Shown piece by piece: positions 1 to 25,695 of a stretch of DNA of 64,000 nucleotides. The stretch comes from Anaerolineales bacterium (lineage in GTDB: Bacteria; Chloroflexota; Anaerolineae; Anaerolineales; UBA4823): NCBI GenBank assembly GCA_003105035.1, contig PQAL01000001.1:1-64000 (forward strand), written 5' to 3'. A model generated the notes under the pieces. That model searched no databases and was not told the DNA's origin. It saw only the letters and a program-made list of their open reading frames with translations. The position numbers and the translations under genes are program-made. The first letter of the stretch is position 1; each line of letters starts with the position of its first letter.

Positions 1-189
1 TGCGCCGGTCATCTTGACCTCGTCGGGAGCCTGGAACTTCAGCGCTTGGGCCTTGACTTCATCTGCGCCGGTCATTTTGACCTCATCGGGGGCTTGGAAC
101 TTGAGGGCCTGGGCCTTGACCTCATCTGCGCCGGTCATCTTGACCTCGTCGGGAGCCTGGAACTTGAGGGCCTGGGCTTTCACCTCGGC
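1..189. repeat. 63-bp direct tandem repeat, three copies visible
   Basis: Units start at 1, 64 and 127, each exactly 63 bp, with only a few substitutions between copies. The period is a multiple of three, so each unit encodes 21 residues in the minus-strand gene. The array probably continues beyond position 1. Low divergence implies recent expansion or gene conversion. Confidence 0.95.
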
Positions 190-409: not shown

Positions 410-1120
410 TCATTCCCAATGATCTACAGCCTGGCTCTGGGCAAGCAGATTCAGTTCATCCAGGTTGAGCAACACGATATGGCCACGGCCGGTGAGCAGC
501 CATCCGCTGCGCCGCCAGCGACCCAGTATGGTCGCCACGGTCTGGCGAGTGAGCCCCACACGGGTGGCCAGCTCATCCTGTGAAAGGGTCAGATAACCCT
601 TATCCCTCGACTGTCCATCCAATAGCAACAGCTGAGCAGCTAAGCGCTGCTGGGCATCAAAGAAAGCCAGCGCCTCTTCTCGCTTGCTGCTATTCTGCAG
701 CCTGCGAGCTGTGACTTCAAGGAGTCTTCCTGCCAGCAATGGCTCCTGTGTCAATGCGTGGATAAACACCGCACCCGGTATGAGAAGCACCTCACTATCA
801 ACAATTGCCTCCGCACTGGCTGAGCGCGCTTCACCGGTCAGAACCCCCAGCTCACCGAAGCATTCCCCAACTTCTATCTCATTAATAACCAGCTCGCGCC
901 CATCGGGGTTTTCAAGCCGGATGGCAATTACTCCTCTCCACACCACATATACAGCGTCTGCAAAATCATGCTGGAAGAAAATAAAACTACCTTTAGCCAC
1001 GGGTTGTAATCTGCTACCCTTGGCAATTGCTACCAGGCTGGAGGGGTTAATTCCCTCGAACAAGGGTAGGGAGCTCAGGAACTGGAGTATGGAAGCAGTC
1101 GCCGTTAGGCGGTTATCCAT
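410..1120 (-). CDS. CRP/FNR-family transcriptional regulator
   Basis: This 236-residue protein has a cyclic-nucleotide-binding fold at residues ~15-130 and a Crp-type winged helix at ~178-210 (LSQDELATRVGLTRQTVATI). In the phosphate-binding cassette the Glu (E90 in FGELG) and Arg (R99 in EARSA) that bind ribose and phosphate in cAMP-responsive members are both present, so cyclic-nucleotide binding is plausible. There is no N-terminal Cys cluster of the FNR iron-sulfur type. The ATG at 1118-1120 overlaps the stop of the upstream phosphatase gene by one base (TGATG), implying translational coupling. It is the last gene of the operon and the probable transcriptional output of the cyclase encoded two genes upstream (inference). 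Confidence 0.9.
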   Translation of the reverse strand: MDNRLTATASILQFLSSLPLFEGINPSSLVAIAKGSRLQPVAKGSFIFFQHDFADAVYVVWRGVIAIRLENPDGRELVINEIEVGECFGELGVLTGEARSASAEAIVDSEVLLIPGAVFIHALTQEPLLAGRLLEVTARRLQNSSKREEALAFFDAQQRLAAQLLLLDGQSRDKGYLTLSQDELATRVGLTRQTVATILGRWRRSGWLLTGRGHIVLLNLDELNLLAQSQAVDHWE

Positions 1121-2379
1121 CAGTGACCCCCTGGCGAACGCTTGATGACGACAATCGTAAAGTCATCGGATTGGGGTTGCTCACCAACAAATTCCTGGAC
1201 CTCTTTCCAGATCATGGAGCAAATCTGGGCTGCGGGTAGATGACCGATGGTAAGCAATGCATTGCGTAAACGCTCGACACCATACTGGCTATCTGAGCCA
1301 TCCAACGCCTCGCTTAATCCATCACTATACATAACAATTAATCCACCTGTGGGGATGACTACGGTCTGCGCATCCAGCTCAATACTTTCGTCAATACCAA
1401 GCGGCATGCCCGGGCTGGAAACTGCTTCAACCAGCTGCATGTGACTATCTAGCACGATGGGGTAAGGATGGCCGGCGCGGCAGTAATCAAAACTCCCAGA
1501 AATGTCCAGGATGCCATAAAGCAGTGTCACAAACATGCCCGAGTGGCTCATTTCGATCAGGTGGTGATTGACCAGTTGCAGGCATGCTTCAGGGGATGGA
1601 TTGCGGGGAGCTTCGATATGCACCAGGCTATTGGTTAAGTTAATGAACAAGGCTGCGGGGATGCCCTTGTCACAGGCATCGCCGATCACAAGGCCGAAGC
1701 GGTGTCTGTTAATGGGTATAAAGTCGTAATAATCACCACCAACTGCCCGGGCAGGAATGGTCAGAGCTGCGATATCAAAACCTTCCAGCAGGGGCAGGCT
1801 ATCGGGGAGGATGCTTTCCTGGATCTGGCGGGCAATGGCTAGCTCTCGTTCCAAACGCTCCTTGATCAGCAGCTGTTCCTGAGCAGCTTTTAAATCCTGG
1901 TAGGCAGTCGTAAGCTGCTGGTTTTTTTCGCGCAAGTCGAGGATGGTAGTATTTTCCGTATCTTCCAGTCGCAGGCTCATCTGGCGTACCATATCATATG
2001 CCAGGCTAGGGTAGCGGTGCAGTAGGCGGTTAAAATCCTGGCGGGTCATTTCAAGAGTCAGGGCGACGGTGTGCGCCCGAACACTGGCAGTGTGTGATCC
2101 TTGCGGATCAAACAGGCTCATCTCACCAAATAAGGTTCCCTCAGGCCGGATGGCTAACTGCCGCTCATCCGATGTGCCCAGGGCTTTGATCACTTCTGCT
2201 TCGCCCTCCAATAAAATATAAAAGTGCTCGTCTGATTCACCTTCTCGAATGAGAAGCTCCCCAGGATCAAACTCACACGGTTGAAGTGTATCAGCCAGAT
2301 GCATCAGCTCAGAATCCGGCAGACCTGCGAATAAGGGGATTCTGGCAATTAAGGCAACCTGTTCTGAGCGGTTTAGCAT
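1120..2379 (-). CDS. CNB domain-SpoIIE/PP2C-type serine phosphatase
   Basis: The 419-residue protein has a CNB fold (residues ~12-130), a coiled-coil linker (~140-195) and a SpoIIE/RsbU-type PP2C phosphatase domain (~200-415). Metal-binding motifs are visible: GGDYYD at 214-219, GDACDKG at 233-239, YSDGLSEA and a C-terminal SDDFT. Such enzymes usually dephosphorylate anti-sigma-factor antagonists, but no STAS or RsbW-like gene is in this window. In the CNB cassette the Glu is present (FGEMS, 84-88) but the usual Arg is absent (GSHTAS at 94-99), so this domain may be degenerate or bind another ligand. One base separates its start from the stop of the receiver-cyclase gene. Confidence 0.92.
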   Translation of the reverse strand: MLNRSEQVALIARIPLFAGLPDSELMHLADTLQPCEFDPGELLIREGESDEHFYILLEGEAEVIKALGTSDERQLAIRPEGTLFGEMSLFDPQGSHTASVRAHTVALTLEMTRQDFNRLLHRYPSLAYDMVRQMSLRLEDTENTTILDLREKNQQLTTAYQDLKAAQEQLLIKERLERELAIARQIQESILPDSLPLLEGFDIAALTIPARAVGGDYYDFIPINRHRFGLVIGDACDKGIPAALFINLTNSLVHIEAPRNPSPEACLQLVNHHLIEMSHSGMFVTLLYGILDISGSFDYCRAGHPYPIVLDSHMQLVEAVSSPGMPLGIDESIELDAQTVVIPTGGLIVMYSDGLSEALDGSDSQYGVERLRNALLTIGHLPAAQICSMIWKEVQEFVGEQPQSDDFTIVVIKRSPGGH

Positions 2380-2380
2380 A

Positions 2381-3421
2381 TCATCCTACCGGGATTGAAT
2401 AGATCCTGACTGCGTGATTCTTGCCCTTGATATCTACCGTTCCCAGGTCATCCACCTTGATCGACTCATGCAATGATTGACGTGTGATCTCGTCGATCAA
2501 GATCGGCACCTGCGCGACCTTGGTATATGCCTCAAGACGGGCTGCCAGGTTAACCGTATCGCCCACGCAGGTATACGTGGCCCGGTGTTGAGTGCCGGTA
2601 TAGCCTGCGATCACCTGCCCCGTAGCAATGCCTATCCCGATTTTTATGGTTGGCTTACTGGCCGCGTCTCGATCAATATTTAACAGGGTGATCATATCGA
2701 TCATTTCCAATGCAGCCCGAACAGCCTGCTCAGCGTGGTTTGGCAGCGGCATCGGTGCCCCAAAAATAGCCATCAGGCCATCCCCCACCATCTGGTTGAC
2801 GACGCCTCCCTGACCACTGATGGCTTCGAACATCAAGGTGTAATAAGTGTTGAGCAGCTCGATGGTATCGGCAGGGGATTGAGATTCAGCCAGGGCGGTA
2901 AAACCCCGAATATCAGAGAACATGGTGGTGGCTTCAATGAAGCGGCCACCCAGGGCAAACCCTGATTCCTCTAAATCCTGCGCAACTTCGGCAGTGGCAA
3001 AGCGCTTGATGAGCTCTCTCTGCTGGTCACGCAAGTGTTTCTTCTCCAGGCATGCCCCGATACGTGCCCTTAACAAAACTGGATTAACTGGCTTAATCAG
3101 GTAATCTTCGGCGCCCATCTCGATGCAGCGCACAACGCTATCCAATTCTTCCAGGGCTGAAGTGACAATTACGGGGATGTCGCGCAATTCCAGGTCACTG
3201 GCTAACCTCTCAAGCACCTGGTAACCATCCATCTCGGGCATCTGGATATCAAGCAGCATCAGGTCAAATTTACTTTGGTGCAGCAGGTCCAACGCCTGGC
3301 GACCATTTTCAGCGAAGGCTACCTGGTGGCCTTGCTGTTCCAGGCCACGCCCGAGGAGCAGGCGGTTGACCTTGTTGTCATCTACCACCAGCAAGCGCCC
3401 GGATGTTACATTACGGCTCAT
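2381..3421 (-). CDS. Response regulator with class III adenylate/guanylate cyclase output
   Basis: This 346-residue protein has an N-terminal receiver domain (~8-125) with acidic pair D14/D15, phospho-acceptor D58 (LMLLDIQMPEMDG) and K110, then a short helical linker and a class III nucleotide cyclase domain (~160-340). The two metal-binding aspartates are D170 (MFSDIRGFT) and D214 (VGDGLMAIFG). The second half contains the CVGDTVNLAARLE segment typical of bacterial adenylate cyclases. Phosphorylation of the receiver should control cAMP (or cGMP) synthesis. The start overlaps the end of the Hpt gene by 11 bases. Adjacent Hpt and CNB genes make it the likely junction between phosphorelay and second messenger (inference). 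Confidence 0.94.
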   Translation of the reverse strand: MSRNVTSGRLLVVDDNKVNRLLLGRGLEQQGHQVAFAENGRQALDLLHQSKFDLMLLDIQMPEMDGYQVLERLASDLELRDIPVIVTSALEELDSVVRCIEMGAEDYLIKPVNPVLLRARIGACLEKKHLRDQQRELIKRFATAEVAQDLEESGFALGGRFIEATTMFSDIRGFTALAESQSPADTIELLNTYYTLMFEAISGQGGVVNQMVGDGLMAIFGAPMPLPNHAEQAVRAALEMIDMITLLNIDRDAASKPTIKIGIGIATGQVIAGYTGTQHRATYTCVGDTVNLAARLEAYTKVAQVPILIDEITRQSLHESIKVDDLGTVDIKGKNHAVRIYSIPVG

Positions 3422-15746: not shown

Positions 15747-17567
15747 TTAACTTGCTATGATTTCTGCCTGTTTTAGGTCTACCGGTTCCTGCTGTAGCTC
15801 ACGCGCGTCCTGAGGTGAGATGCCTACCGTACGCGGCAGCTCGTGGATGCTTGTGCGGGCGAGGCGTTCCGACATGCGGGAAAGCACCAACCGGCTGAAA
15901 TCCGCTTGAGCCATCATCACCCGCAATATTGAAGCTGGTACCTCCAAGCAGAGGGAGGTTTCTTCTACTACCACATCCGCAGTGCGCGCAGCCCCGGTGA
16001 GGGCCGCGATCTCACCAAAATAATCTCCGGGAGTCATACTGGATAGTGAGTGGTATTCACCGCTTTCACTTGCGATTCCAGCTACAGCCTTACCTTTCAA
16101 GACAAAATATGCCTGGTCACCCACCTCGCCAGCACTCATCATCCGGGTGCCAGCTTCTACTTCTAATACCGAACCCTGGGTGATGATTCGCTCGCGGTCT
16201 GCTCGTGATAATCCTCCCAGCGAGGGAATCAGGCCAACCAGCAAGTCGACATCTGAAGGCAGCACGGCCCGCCTTACCCCAAGTGGGGCAGCAGCCGGTG
16301 CACTGCGAAGTAGCTGTAGGGCCTTACGCCACTCGGCAGCTGGCTGACCAATACCTGGCAGCACCAGTGCCCAAATACCACAAGCCAAGGTGATAAACGC
16401 GCCAACGAGGTACAGCACACGTACATCGATGATATCAGCCAACCCCGAAGCAGCCATGCCGATCAGGAAGAAAGCGTTGGAGGAGACGAAGAAGGCACTG
16501 GCCACCCGCCCGCGCATCTCGGCTGCTGTGTTACGCTGGACCAACACTCGCCTGGCAATGGAATAGGGTGCATTCATAAAACCAGAGATCATCTGCACAG
16601 CAATCGCCAGTGCAACAGAGTGCAAAAATGAATAGACCAAAGCTGCCATCCCCATCCCAAACAACCCCACCACCATCCACTGGCCTTCACGCCAGCGACT
16701 AAAGTAGCCAACCATCAACAGGCTGGCGATAACAAACCCGACTGAGGTGAGTCCTTCCTGGATGCCATATTCAAAAGTGGTGGCACCTAATGCGCGTTCA
16801 GCGAATGGCAACAACAACGAATTAGCCAGGCCAAAACTCACCGCGATGGGGATGGCCAGCAGGAATATCGACCGCAAAGCAGGGTTTTTTGTCAGATAAG
16901 TGACGCCTGTCTTAAGGTTGGCAAACACCACTTTTACCGAAGTCTCATCCAAAATCTCCAGCTTGCGCACGCGTAAGAATAATATGCATCCTGCAGAGAT
17001 CAGAAAAGATATGGCATCAATATAAAAAGCAATGGCTATGTCATATCTTGCAATCAAACCTGCAGCAGCAAAACCTACTGCAGTGGAGCCGAAAGTACTA
17101 ATGGCCATGAGTGAATTGGCCGCGGCCAGCTCATCATCAGGCGCTACTTCGGGCAGCACACTCTCATATGCCGGGTCAAAGAACTGCCCAACCGTGCTTG
17201 TCAGGATCACGATCACATACAGCCAGACAATGCTGTAAGGTACCAGGAAGGGGATCAGGAAAACCAACACGGCCCTGAGCAGGTCAGCAATAATCATGAT
17301 CTTTCGCCGGTCATAGCGATCCACGAATACCCCGGCGATCAACCCGACCAGCAGGCTGGGAGCAGCCGTAGCCATCAACATCAGCCCTACGCTCAGGGCG
17401 GACCCATTGGTTTGCTGGTATACCAGGATTGAAGCTGCCAGCGAGGTAAGGGCACTGCCAATGGTGGACACCAGCTGCCCGGTCCACATCAGTGTAAAAT
17501 TTTTGTGACGAAAGACGATAAATGGCGATTTTGGCTTGCCGGTGAGCGATGCGGTATCCGTGCTCAT
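15747..17567 (-). CDS. MFS transporter fused to a cyclic-nucleotide-binding domain
   Basis: Residues ~15-420 form a 12-helix major-facilitator transporter of the MFS_3/enterobactin-exporter type, with a loop motif GVFVDRYDRRKIM after helix 2. Residues ~455-575 form a soluble CNB domain, followed by a short tail. The CNB cassette FGEIAALTGAARTADVV keeps both Glu and Arg expected for cAMP binding. The substrate is unknown. The fusion suggests transport is gated by the cyclic nucleotide made by the cyclase in the same operon (inference). The ATG overlaps the end of the peptidase gene by four bases (ATGA), and 24 bases separate its stop from the kinase start. Confidence 0.92.
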   Translation of the reverse strand: MSTDTASLTGKPKSPFIVFRHKNFTLMWTGQLVSTIGSALTSLAASILVYQQTNGSALSVGLMLMATAAPSLLVGLIAGVFVDRYDRRKIMIIADLLRAVLVFLIPFLVPYSIVWLYVIVILTSTVGQFFDPAYESVLPEVAPDDELAAANSLMAISTFGSTAVGFAAAGLIARYDIAIAFYIDAISFLISAGCILFLRVRKLEILDETSVKVVFANLKTGVTYLTKNPALRSIFLLAIPIAVSFGLANSLLLPFAERALGATTFEYGIQEGLTSVGFVIASLLMVGYFSRWREGQWMVVGLFGMGMAALVYSFLHSVALAIAVQMISGFMNAPYSIARRVLVQRNTAAEMRGRVASAFFVSSNAFFLIGMAASGLADIIDVRVLYLVGAFITLACGIWALVLPGIGQPAAEWRKALQLLRSAPAAAPLGVRRAVLPSDVDLLVGLIPSLGGLSRADRERIITQGSVLEVEAGTRMMSAGEVGDQAYFVLKGKAVAGIASESGEYHSLSSMTPGDYFGEIAALTGAARTADVVVEETSLCLEVPASILRVMMAQADFSRLVLSRMSERLARTSIHELPRTVGISPQDARELQQEPVDLKQAEIIAS

Positions 17568-19342
17568 TGGTCACCTCCAGTGATCATCTCAAGCTGCTCA
17601 AATTTATCCTGCAGGATATCAAAGCCCCCCTGCCAAAAAATGGGTGAAGTAATATCCATACCCGCTTCTTCAAGCATTTTTTGAGGCTCAGCGGAACCAC
17701 CGTATGATAACAACCTGATATAGCGTGGCACAAAATTCCCTGGATCAGCCAGGTACTGCTGGTATAACGCCAGTACCAGGAGTTGCCCAAAGCTATATGC
17801 ATACGGATAGAACGGAGAATTGAAAATGTGCGGGATGGTGAGCCACTCCCAGGCGAACTCATCGGAAAGCTCGAGTGCATCGCCGAACTGTTCTTGCAGA
17901 TTTTTCAAGTATAAGCCTGCCAATTCATCGCTGGTACAGCCGGCCAATATCCTTTGATGCGCCTGCCTCTCAAAAATGGATATATACGCCTGGCGCTCGA
18001 CCGTTGCATACGCATCGTCCAGGAAGGTCAGTAACAGGTCGCGCTTGATAATTGGATCAGGTTCCCCTTGCAGCAATCGGTCGGTCACCAGCATCTCGGC
18101 AAATACAGAAGCAGTTTCTGCCAGTGGCAGCGGGGCATGAAAGTTAAATACCGAGTGGTGACTGGCCAGGATGGAGTGTACCGAGTGACCAAGCTCGTGG
18201 GCAAGGGTGGTGACGTCACGGATGCAATTATTATAATTGACCAAAACCCAGGGAATATACTTTGGCGACACGCCGTAGGAAAATGCGCCCGCGCGCTTTC
18301 CAGGTCGTACCTGTGAATCAAGGTGAGACTTCTCAAGCACTTGTGAGGCTGCTTGAGCTATTTGCGGCGAAAACTGGTTGAAACAATCCAGAACCAACGG
18401 TACAGCAGTGCCAAACTCAATTGTCTTTTCCGAGCTGGCGATAGGGGCATAGATGTCATAACGTCGCAGCTTGTCCATTTTCAGCAGTCTGGCTTTTAGA
18501 TTGAAGTAACGCTGAAAAAGCAAGGTGTTCTTCTGGCAGGCTTCCAGCAGGGCATCTACCACCGGGTCGGGGATATTATTACCAAAATTACGGACCGAGA
18601 TCGGGCTCGGGTAACCCCGCAACTCCACCGCTTCACTGCCCCAATCGCGGACCAGGCTGAAATAGATTTGGGAAATCACTGCCTTGCTGCCACCATACAC
18701 CCGATACAGCTCATTGTATGTGGCAGCCCTCACCTGGGGTGATGGATGGTGATAATACTGGCTCAACCCGTCTCGAGTTAACTGTTTTACTTCTCCATCC
18801 ACTTCCAAATTAAAAATGAAACCATTGGTGAGGATTTCGTAAATCTTTGTCAGCGCTTCTCCACCATTAGCATCCTTGAGATTGATGATCTTTTCTTCTG
18901 GCTCAGTTAACGTGTAAGGTTTAAAACGGCGTATGGAGATCAGGTGATAAGATAATTCACCCGCTGCTGCGATAAATTTATCGGCCACCTCGTTTGATAA
19001 GCTTTTAAACCACAAGCTGAAGAACAAGGTGCGATTTTGTACCCCGGTAAGCACTTGCTCAATGCGATCACGCAGGCTTAAGGCCGTCGGGTTTTGAGTA
19101 TCTTCTGCGAAACCCAGGTACGCATAACCGCCCACCTGACCGGTGAGCTCTCTTAATAGTTCAGTTTTATGCAGCAAGGTGAGGAATTCCGAGGCAGCTA
19201 AATCGTTGGAGAGGCGATCGCGATACAATTCAACTTCTCTGACACAGGATTCGATTTGGTCGAGAAGTCCATCCAGCTGCTCAGGGCCTTCGGGTAGCAA
19301 TTCCTGTAAACTCCATCGAGACGTTTTATGTGTTCTTGTCAT
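17564..19342 (-). CDS. pepF: Oligoendopeptidase F family (M3) metallopeptidase
   Basis: This 592-residue cytoplasmic zinc peptidase carries the M3 motif HELGH at residues 382-386 (TTLAHELGHSVHS), with the downstream glutamate in LAETASVFAEML as probable third ligand. Length and overall pattern fit oligoendopeptidase F, which cleaves peptides of moderate length. It is the first gene of the minus-strand signalling operon and overlaps the MFS-CNB gene by four bases. Whether it functions in the same circuit or is only co-transcribed cannot be judged. Upstream is a 290-bp divergent gap shared with the Mth938-type gene. Confidence 0.92.
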   Translation of the reverse strand: MTRTHKTSRWSLQELLPEGPEQLDGLLDQIESCVREVELYRDRLSNDLAASEFLTLLHKTELLRELTGQVGGYAYLGFAEDTQNPTALSLRDRIEQVLTGVQNRTLFFSLWFKSLSNEVADKFIAAAGELSYHLISIRRFKPYTLTEPEEKIINLKDANGGEALTKIYEILTNGFIFNLEVDGEVKQLTRDGLSQYYHHPSPQVRAATYNELYRVYGGSKAVISQIYFSLVRDWGSEAVELRGYPSPISVRNFGNNIPDPVVDALLEACQKNTLLFQRYFNLKARLLKMDKLRRYDIYAPIASSEKTIEFGTAVPLVLDCFNQFSPQIAQAASQVLEKSHLDSQVRPGKRAGAFSYGVSPKYIPWVLVNYNNCIRDVTTLAHELGHSVHSILASHHSVFNFHAPLPLAETASVFAEMLVTDRLLQGEPDPIIKRDLLLTFLDDAYATVERQAYISIFERQAHQRILAGCTSDELAGLYLKNLQEQFGDALELSDEFAWEWLTIPHIFNSPFYPYAYSFGQLLVLALYQQYLADPGNFVPRYIRLLSYGGSAEPQKMLEEAGMDITSPIFWQGGFDILQDKFEQLEMITGGDQ

Positions 19343-22947: not shown

Positions 22948-25695
22948 ATGGCGGCAATGATCATTCGTACTCCCGATTATCATTTACGGGTTTTTGTCAG
23001 CTCTACACTAAAAGAGCTGGCAGATGAACGTAAAGCGGTCCGCCAGTCAATCCTCAAACTACGCCTTTCTCCCGTTATGTTTGAATCGGGCGCACGCCCC
23101 CATCCAGCACAGGAGCTGTATCAGGCCTATCTGGCACAGAGCCAGATTTTTATTGGTATATATTGGCAGAGCTATGGCTGGGTAGCCCCGGATATGAATA
23201 TTTCGGGCTTGGAAGACGAATATAATCTCTCAGCTAAGCTACCCAGGTTAATCTACATAAAGACGCCGGCAGCAGAGCGCGAGCCCGCCCTTGGGTCCTT
23301 GCTTGATCGAATCCGGAACGATAATTCAAGCTCCTACACCTATTTTTCTTCACCTGCTGAACTCAAGGAACTTGTGCAGAACGACCTGGCATTAATGCTC
23401 ACCGAGCGATTTGAAGCCAGGCAATCGAAAGAAATATCCCCCCTCAAGAGTATAGTTCATCCGCCTACCAATTTACCTGTTCCACGCAACCCCCTCGCCG
23501 GGCGTGAGAAAGAGCTCACTTCAATTTGTGAATTGCTCAAGCAGGAAGATATCGCGCTAATCACGTTGACCGGTGCAGGTGGTACTGGAAAATCTCGCCT
23601 GGCGATACAAATCGGTTTGAACGTGCTTGACCATTTCACTGATGGCGTATACCTGGTCAGATTAGAACCTATTATCGATCCCGAATTAGTCATCTCCGCC
23701 ATTGCGGAGACATTTGGGATCAGGGATACACCTGAAAGTCAACCGATTGAAATGATGCTGGGTGAATACCTCCAAGACAAGAATATGCTTTTAATCCTGG
23801 ATAATTTCGAGCAAGTGGTAGATGCGGCACCCCACGTAGCCGAAATCCTCGAGAAATGCCCCAGGCTCAAATGTATCACAACCAGTCGATTGCCTCTACG
23901 CTTGCGAGCCGAGAGGGAGCTTCCTGTCCTGCCTTTAGAGATCCCAGTAGTAAGAGACCCTGGTGAAATCACCGATTTAAGTCAATATGCTGCAGCTGAG
24001 CTTTTCATTCAACGCGCACGGGCAGTGAACCCCGACTTCACCATGACGAAGGTAAATGCGCAAGCCGTGGCCGAAATCTGTTACCGCCTCGATGGACTGC
24101 CGCTTGCTATTGAGCTGGCTGCTGCTCGGATCAAGCTTCTCCCTCCCCAAGCCCTTCTTGCCCGGCTTGATCATCGCTTCGAGATATTAACCAGCGGGAC
24201 ACGCGATCTCCCTGAGCGCCATCGTACACTGCGCAACGCGATTGATTGGAGCTATCACCTGCTCGATGAGACAGAAAAGACCCTGTTCAGGAGGCTGGCT
24301 GTATTTTCCGATGGATGTTCATTTGAGGCAATTCAAAAGGTATGCGACATAAATAATGACCTGATCCCCCAATTAGACGATAGGTTATCTTCTCTGGTTG
24401 ACAATAACCTGGTGATTCAAATACAGGGATTAGATGATGAACCCCGCTTTGGAATGCTCAACACTATCCGTGCGTATGCAGCTGAGCAATTGGATGCCTG
24501 TGACGAATACCTGGTCATTCATGAGAAATTTGCTCAATACTTCCTTGAATTCGTAAAAGATGTTGAGCCTCGCATACGTTCCAAGGAAAGGGAGTGGTGG
24601 CAGGGCAAGATGCAACGTGAATTCGGGAATATCCGCAGTGCCCTGGACTGGATAAGTACGACCGGATATTGCATTGAAATCGGGCAGGAAATCGTCATCG
24701 AAGTGGGCCTGTTCTGGCACATCTGCGGTTATATAACCGAAGGCCAATATTGGTGCGACCGGATGTTAACCTTATGCGACGATTCAACGTCTGACAGAAT
24801 TCGTGCAGGCCTGCTGCTTTTTGGAGGACTGCTCAACCGAGCGCAAAGTGACCAGGCAACGGCCACAGCATCTGTTGACAAGAGCCTCGAATTGATATGC
24901 AAGCTCCATGATGAACCCTTGATGGGTATCGCCCTCATGGCAAGAGGCATCATTGCTTCAGCAATGCGCGATCTTTCTCGGGCCGCAGAATCATTTGAAG
25001 AAGCCGTGGAGATATTCAGGAGAATAAGCGATCTGTGGAACCTGGCAGTCTCTTTGTCCTGGTTGGGTGATATTGCCTTATTCCAGGATGACACTGCCCT
25101 TGCCCAACAATATCACAACGAAAGTATCAAGATTGCCAGACAGCAGGGCGATCCTTGGTGCCTCATGCCCGCGCTTATGTCATCTGCACAGGTTGAGATG
25201 ATGAACGGAGAGCTTGACTCCGCCTATCTAAAGCTGGTAGAGATCACACAGGTATTGCAAAAAACTGGCGACCGCTGGAGTTTATCATGGACACTGATTG
25301 ACCTGGGACATGTCGTCTACTTACAGGGCAACCTCCAACAAGCGGGTGGATATATTCTCGAAGCACTCCAGCTTGCCAAAACCTTTGGGAATCTGCGAGC
25401 GCTGGTCATCGGGTTGGTAAAAGCAGCTGCCCTCATCGCAAGGATGAGCCAGCCAGAAAATAAGATACAGCTGGCTTTAGCTGCCCGGATTTGCGGGACT
25501 TGCGCTACATACTCCAATCAACCTGGATTATTTGTCTGGATCAATACAAGGCAGCTTTATGAACAGGCAATAGCTGATACGAAATCTCTAATGGATGACA
25601 AGCTATGGATCAGCGGACACACAGAGGGTCAGAACATGCCGCTTGAAAATACGATAATGCTAACTCTGGAATCCCTCAGAGAAAGCATCCGCTAA
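22948..25695 (+). CDS. DUF4062-STAND (NB-ARC type) ATPase with TPR-like repeats
   Basis: The 915-residue protein has an N-terminal DUF4062 domain (~10-115: RVFVSSTLKELADERKAVRQ, IFIGIYWQSYGW), a STAND/NB-ARC NTPase with Walker A GAGGTGKS at 209-216 and Walker B LLILDNFEQV, an AfsR-like arm containing RLDGLPLAIELAAARIKLLP, and a C-terminal half of TPR-like helical repeats. DUF4062 has a TIR-like alpha/beta look and is often the N-terminal module of STAND proteins in regulation or defence. There is no C-terminal DNA-binding domain, so it is not a standard LuxR/AfsR activator. An alternative ATG lies at 22957. It stands alone, facing the minus-strand operon that ends at 25840. The role is undetermined. 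Confidence 0.85.
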   Translation: MAAMIIRTPDYHLRVFVSSTLKELADERKAVRQSILKLRLSPVMFESGARPHPAQELYQAYLAQSQIFIGIYWQSYGWVAPDMNISGLEDEYNLSAKLPRLIYIKTPAAEREPALGSLLDRIRNDNSSSYTYFSSPAELKELVQNDLALMLTERFEARQSKEISPLKSIVHPPTNLPVPRNPLAGREKELTSICELLKQEDIALITLTGAGGTGKSRLAIQIGLNVLDHFTDGVYLVRLEPIIDPELVISAIAETFGIRDTPESQPIEMMLGEYLQDKNMLLILDNFEQVVDAAPHVAEILEKCPRLKCITTSRLPLRLRAERELPVLPLEIPVVRDPGEITDLSQYAAAELFIQRARAVNPDFTMTKVNAQAVAEICYRLDGLPLAIELAAARIKLLPPQALLARLDHRFEILTSGTRDLPERHRTLRNAIDWSYHLLDETEKTLFRRLAVFSDGCSFEAIQKVCDINNDLIPQLDDRLSSLVDNNLVIQIQGLDDEPRFGMLNTIRAYAAEQLDACDEYLVIHEKFAQYFLEFVKDVEPRIRSKEREWWQGKMQREFGNIRSALDWISTTGYCIEIGQEIVIEVGLFWHICGYITEGQYWCDRMLTLCDDSTSDRIRAGLLLFGGLLNRAQSDQATATASVDKSLELICKLHDEPLMGIALMARGIIASAMRDLSRAAESFEEAVEIFRRISDLWNLAVSLSWLGDIALFQDDTALAQQYHNESIKIARQQGDPWCLMPALMSSAQVEMMNGELDSAYLKLVEITQVLQKTGDRWSLSWTLIDLGHVVYLQGNLQQAGGYILEALQLAKTFGNLRALVIGLVKAAALIARMSQPENKIQLALAARICGTCATYSNQPGLFVWINTRQLYEQAIADTKSLMDDKLWISGHTEGQNMPLENTIMLTLESLRESIR

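Follow-up and report, generated by a model that had tools for sequence, protein, structure and literature searches.

The window, a 64,000-nt stretch of an Anaerolineales bacterium contig (PQAL01000001.1), contains a minus-strand run of genes which, in order, encode an M3 peptidase, a major facilitator superfamily (MFS) transporter with a cyclic nucleotide (cNMP)-binding (CNB) domain, a hybrid kinase, an HPt protein, a REC-cyclase, a CNB-SpoIIE protein, and a CRP-type regulator (Table 1). The transporter gene lies where the first-pass annotation had placed it, and is one intact open reading frame on the minus strand (17567 to 15747); over the same interval the plus strand is interrupted by many stop codons.

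Table 1. Features of the transporter locus and its surroundings (window positions).
Feature	Position	Strand	Remarks
MFS-CNB transporter, 606 aa	15747..17567	-	MFS ~15-402, linker ~403-436, CNB ~437-572, conserved tail 573-606
CNB core (PF00027) of the transporter	15906..16163	-	Phosphate-binding cassette FGEIAALTGAARTA, Glu519 and Arg528; Pfam, orthologue alignment
Tail after the CNB (residues 573-606)	15747..15850	-	Asp/Glu576, Pro578, Arg579, and Leu591 conserved
M3 family oligoendopeptidase	17564..19342	-	4-nt overlap of its end with the transporter start; also adjacent in one relative, L167
Hybrid histidine kinase, 3979 aa	3783..15722	-	TPR, about 16 GAF, PAS, HisKA, HATPase, two REC; 24-nt gap from transporter stop
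HPt phosphotransfer protein, 117 aa	3411..3764	-	PF01627, E = 3.3e-13; 18-nt gap after kinase, overlaps cyclase gene by 11 nt
REC + class III cyclase	2381..3421	-	PF00211, E = 3.7e-29
CNB + SpoIIE (PP2C-type) phosphatase	1120..2379	-	Cassette Arg replaced by His
CRP-type regulator	410..1120	-	CNB + HTH_Crp_2
Tandem repeat, 63-bp unit	1..186		3 copies, 88% match
DUF4062 + NB-ARC + TPR protein (STAND-type)	22948..25695	+	

The product had been described as an MFS transporter with a C-terminal CNB domain, and Pfam bears this out: MFS_1 (residues 27-244, E = 9.5e-33), MFS_3 (residues 14-330, E = 4e-23), and cNMP_binding (residues 469-554, E = 3.3e-15, 56.3 bits against a cutoff of 27.5) all score above their cutoffs. 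A 12-helix fold, together with the MFS_1 and MFS_3 matches, places the N-terminal part in the major facilitator superfamily. Among family models, those that fit it best are TIGR00900, EntS, and Mef (macrolide exporters), each of them below its own cutoff; the best, TIGR00900 (H+ antiporter 2A0121), reaches 207.8 bits against a cutoff of 319.6, so the assignment to an exporter subfamily (DHA3-like) is tentative. The nearest folds are those of sialin, NorA, MdfA, and VMAT. Taken with the family models, these folds predict an exporter-like MFS part, and judged from sequence and models the transporter is most likely a proton-driven, DHA3-like MFS exporter.

Orthologues from independent MAGs, 49 to 74% identical, align over both domains (residues ~14-593). 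A frame artefact or assembly join as the origin of the fusion is ruled out, both domains being kept in 56 orthologues. A full-length AF2 model (ten orthologues) comprises an MFS helix bundle and a CNB fold, with a mean pLDDT of 77.6; it is weak over the linker (residues 409-427) and of low confidence from residue 573 onward. This conserved tail, with a motif resembling DLPR..DQ.LRELR, is disordered in the AF2 model and is possibly a docking or lid element.

The phosphate-binding cassette of the transporter CNB domain reads FGEIAALTGAARTADV. The ligand-binding Glu and Arg, noted as retained in the first-pass annotation, proved to be invariant, with Glu519 present in 56/56 orthologues, all Chloroflexota by their MAG titles, and Arg528 in 55/55, the latter counted in the proteins that reach it. 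Sequence relatives of the domain include PKG, PKA-RI, and Crp, as well as MloK1 from Mesorhizobium loti. The AF2 model of the isolated domain, with a core pLDDT of about 83 to 97 (mostly >90), shows a β-roll and C-terminal helices as in ligand-bound receptors, and its top Foldseek matches are cAMP-bound GlxR, MtbCRP, and PKA-RI; MloK1 was found here also. In the neighboring SpoIIE phosphatase the cassette Arg is replaced by His in every readable orthologue (window, L031, L159, L162), and this domain is probably, from its sequence, no classical cNMP receptor. Orthologues of the CRP-type regulator vary in this respect. The invariance of Glu and Arg in the transporter, set beside the loss of Arg in SpoIIE and the variability in CRP, thus points to strong and specific constraint on the transporter site.

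The suggestion that the transporter belongs to an operon with a cyclase holds: the gene for a REC + class III cyclase lies in the same gap-free minus-strand run, 12.3 kb downstream. The nearest genes give the impression of an operon without a cyclase, which is wrong. At this distance the term operon rests on spacing and synteny; a terminator and promoter scan gave results no better than shuffles. The CNB-SpoIIE and CRP-type regulator genes touch or overlap their neighbors, and the HPt protein is an addition to the first-pass account, from which it was absent. The resulting kinase-REC-HPt-REC-cyclase order is that of a phosphorelay, and we infer that these proteins may act as one. The roughly 16 GAF domains of the kinase are near-repeats; its counterparts by synteny in L031 and L084 are 2,314 to 2,358 residues long, with about 10 GAF domains in L084, and these differences in size and number imply an array of GAF domains that grows and shrinks. 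The STAND-type protein is encoded close to the operon, on the opposite strand. The 63-bp tandem repeat is situated at the contig end, and on the minus strand could encode a 21-residue peptide repeat.

The REC-cyclase keeps both metal-binding Asp residues (FSDIRGF, VGDG) and the transition-state Asn and Arg (VNLAARLE). At its purine site the adenine-side Thr is kept and the adenine Lys is replaced by Gln, a Gln shared by the related cyclases of L157, L158, and L159; since adenylyl cyclases have Lys at this position, the product is unsure, with cAMP likelier than cGMP. The nearest solved relative is 2w01, a cyanobacterial cyclase. This noncanonical purine site would suit a scheme in which the transporter CNB binds some nucleotide or small molecule other than cAMP or cGMP, while the cyclase feeds other CNB proteins of the locus, and some CNB domains do bind other ligands. 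We regard this as quite improbable: the transporter cassette is an exact and invariant match to those of cNMP binders, and because the SpoIIE CNB lacks the Arg, the transporter and the CRP-type regulator would be the sole competent receptors in the operon.

A match to the transporter at E ≤ 1e-60 was found in 18 of 400 sampled Chloroflexota genomes; to call the architecture uncommon, as had been done, is fair, although there is precedent for it, as MFS-CNBD fusions appear in the literature (PMC10710835). Further relatives came from individual families and from the taxonomic order of the window; a plasmid search returned plain MFS transporters only. Two unlike cyclase partners occur across the relatives, either the phosphorelay REC-cyclase or a large cyclase-AAA-TPR protein encoded directly downstream. 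Within the window's taxonomic order, the transporter, kinase, HPt, and REC-cyclase genes are kept in L157, L158, L159, and L162; L159 repeats the gene order of the window from the transporter through CRP, and the cyclase of L162 is interrupted by unresolved bases. L084/L156 has the relay layout as well, with a cyclase domain that has diverged. Immediately after the transporter gene, members of family f34 carry a gene for a protein of 1,000 to 1,700 residues that combines a zinc ribbon with AAA_16, TPR, and either one or two cyclase domains. The partner in a trio from family f93 is a cyclase-AAA protein, and the one that was scanned (L163, 1843-5679, plus strand), directly downstream of MFS-CNB, has TPR and a solute-binding SBP_bac_5 domain as well. 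In L161 and L126, too, a cyclase gene follows MFS-CNB at this position. No cyclase was seen in the DNA fetched for about 40% of loci, including most members of family f22, whose MFS-CNB genes lie beside cysteinyl-tRNA synthetase.

At 16 of 32 loci, a cyclase gene on the same strand lies no more than 3 kb downstream, against 0.185 expected from per-genome cyclase counts, a linkage about 85-fold over expectation; inspection raised the count to 17 by adding L109, whose stop-to-stop frame overlaps. When the whole of the flanking DNA fetched for the 32 loci is considered, a cyclase is seen at 20 and expected at 1.68. The 17 linked loci belong to five genera of f34, nine of them to a single genus, and because loci are related, p-values overstate their independence. 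Among MFS paralogues without a CNB, 0/28 had a cyclase within 1.5 kb; on the CNB side of this comparison the 9/9 comes from genomes chosen for having the linkage, and only the 0/28 control is informative. Chance adjacency owing to the many cyclases per genome is ruled out by the per-genome counts and the non-CNB controls. Mapped onto the transporter tree, the AAA-TPR-cyclase label requires three changes, so that this type of partner was acquired more than once, and the f93 trio is separated from f34 and sits next to a relay-type member. This pattern indicates that cyclase pairing arose more than once, with unlike cyclases, a history difficult to account for if the transporter makes no use of what they produce.

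The linkage bears on two other readings of the fusion. CNB domains can retain their fold without using cNMP, and the domain might be a structural or autoinhibitory module that has ceased to respond to cNMP. Plant SOS1 provides a precedent, being a transporter with a cytosolic CNB-like domain whose pocket is degenerate and blocked, with the conserved Arg lost, and which is regulated by phosphorylation (PMC10372031); the many CNB loci without a nearby cyclase would also fit. Unlike SOS1, the window family has invariant Glu and Arg across the 56 proteins, and such a module would leave the excess of neighboring cyclases unaccounted for, so that we judge this reading unlikely. A transporter that itself exports the cyclic nucleotide, or an analogue, with the CNB sensing or trapping the substrate so as to activate the pump at high cNMP and end the signal, would account for the tight linkage to different cyclase types and would suit an efflux-type MFS protein. 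The MFS part, however, resembles exporters of lipophilic drugs, siderophores, and macrolides, not known cNMP exporters, and this too seems an improbable explanation.

We consider it probable, from sequence and models together, that the protein is an H+-driven exporter whose activity switches when its own C-terminal CNB domain binds a cyclic nucleotide. Direct second-messenger gating had been suggested at the outset, and the invariant Glu and Arg, the far-over-chance linkage to two cyclase architectures, and a CNB model closest to cAMP-bound receptors all argue for it. The sequences themselves show the fused reading frame, intact and invariant ligand residues, the run of genes, and repeated linkage to two types of cyclase; from these we infer the identity of the ligand, its binding, and the gating with its direction. 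In the proposed scheme, the many-GAF hybrid kinase would sense a cytosolic signal, and phosphate would pass from the kinase REC domains through HPt to the REC-cyclase, in an order suggested by the domains. The cyclase would make cAMP or, less likely, cGMP; this product would bind the transporter CNB, and the hinge/lid helix and conserved linker could then carry the change in the CNB to the helix bundle and alter its conformational cycle. The CRP-type regulator would pass the same signal on to transcription. The broader proposal, of a cyclic nucleotide-gated MFS exporter clade repeatedly paired in evolution with unrelated cyclase inputs (REC-cyclase, cyclase-AAA-TPR) as a modular "cyclase plus cNMP-gated carrier" system, we hold to be slightly favored.

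The best-known bacterial cAMP effectors are transcription factors, channels, and enzymes. Two Mycobacterium tuberculosis proteins, Rv3239c and Rv3728, were reportedly described by McCue et al. in 2000 as MFS transporters that bear a domain for cNMP binding, and are said to be about 1,050 residues long with an extra hydrolase-like region. In a 2023 review (PMC10710835, citing surveys by Willson et al. 2019), bacterial MFS-CNBD fusions of the same architecture class, MFS plus C-terminal CNBD, are listed as uncharacterized and proposed to be regulatory; the review describes neither cyclase linkage nor an analysis of ligand residues for them. No paper on the function or cyclase linkage of MFS-CNB fusions was found in the literature searched. 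This kind of fusion is already known, and what the present comparison of sequences appears to add is unusually strong genomic support for the variant described here. The best functional analogue is the sperm Na+/H+ exchanger SLC9C1, a secondary-active transporter with a cytosolic CNB in which cAMP binding alters transport (PMC6052114, PMC10620091), which makes it a known case, in another fold, of a carrier under cNMP control. SLC9C1 is a eukaryotic cation exchanger with a CPA/NHE fold and a voltage-sensor domain, whereas the window protein is bacterial, has an MFS fold, and lacks a voltage sensor. M. loti MloK1 CNG is likewise a bacterial membrane protein with a C-terminal CNB, but is an ion channel and not a carrier. 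Gating of the window transporter, if true, would be a bacterial parallel to SLC9C1 on a wholly different transporter fold, and the invariant ligand site, neighboring cyclase, and many orthologues make direct cNMP gating of an MFS carrier testable with one protein.

One MFS-CNB protein, from a MAG titled as an actinobacterium (L040), nests inside the Chloroflexota clade of the transporter tree; this probably reflects a mislabelled or misbinned MAG, or transfer.
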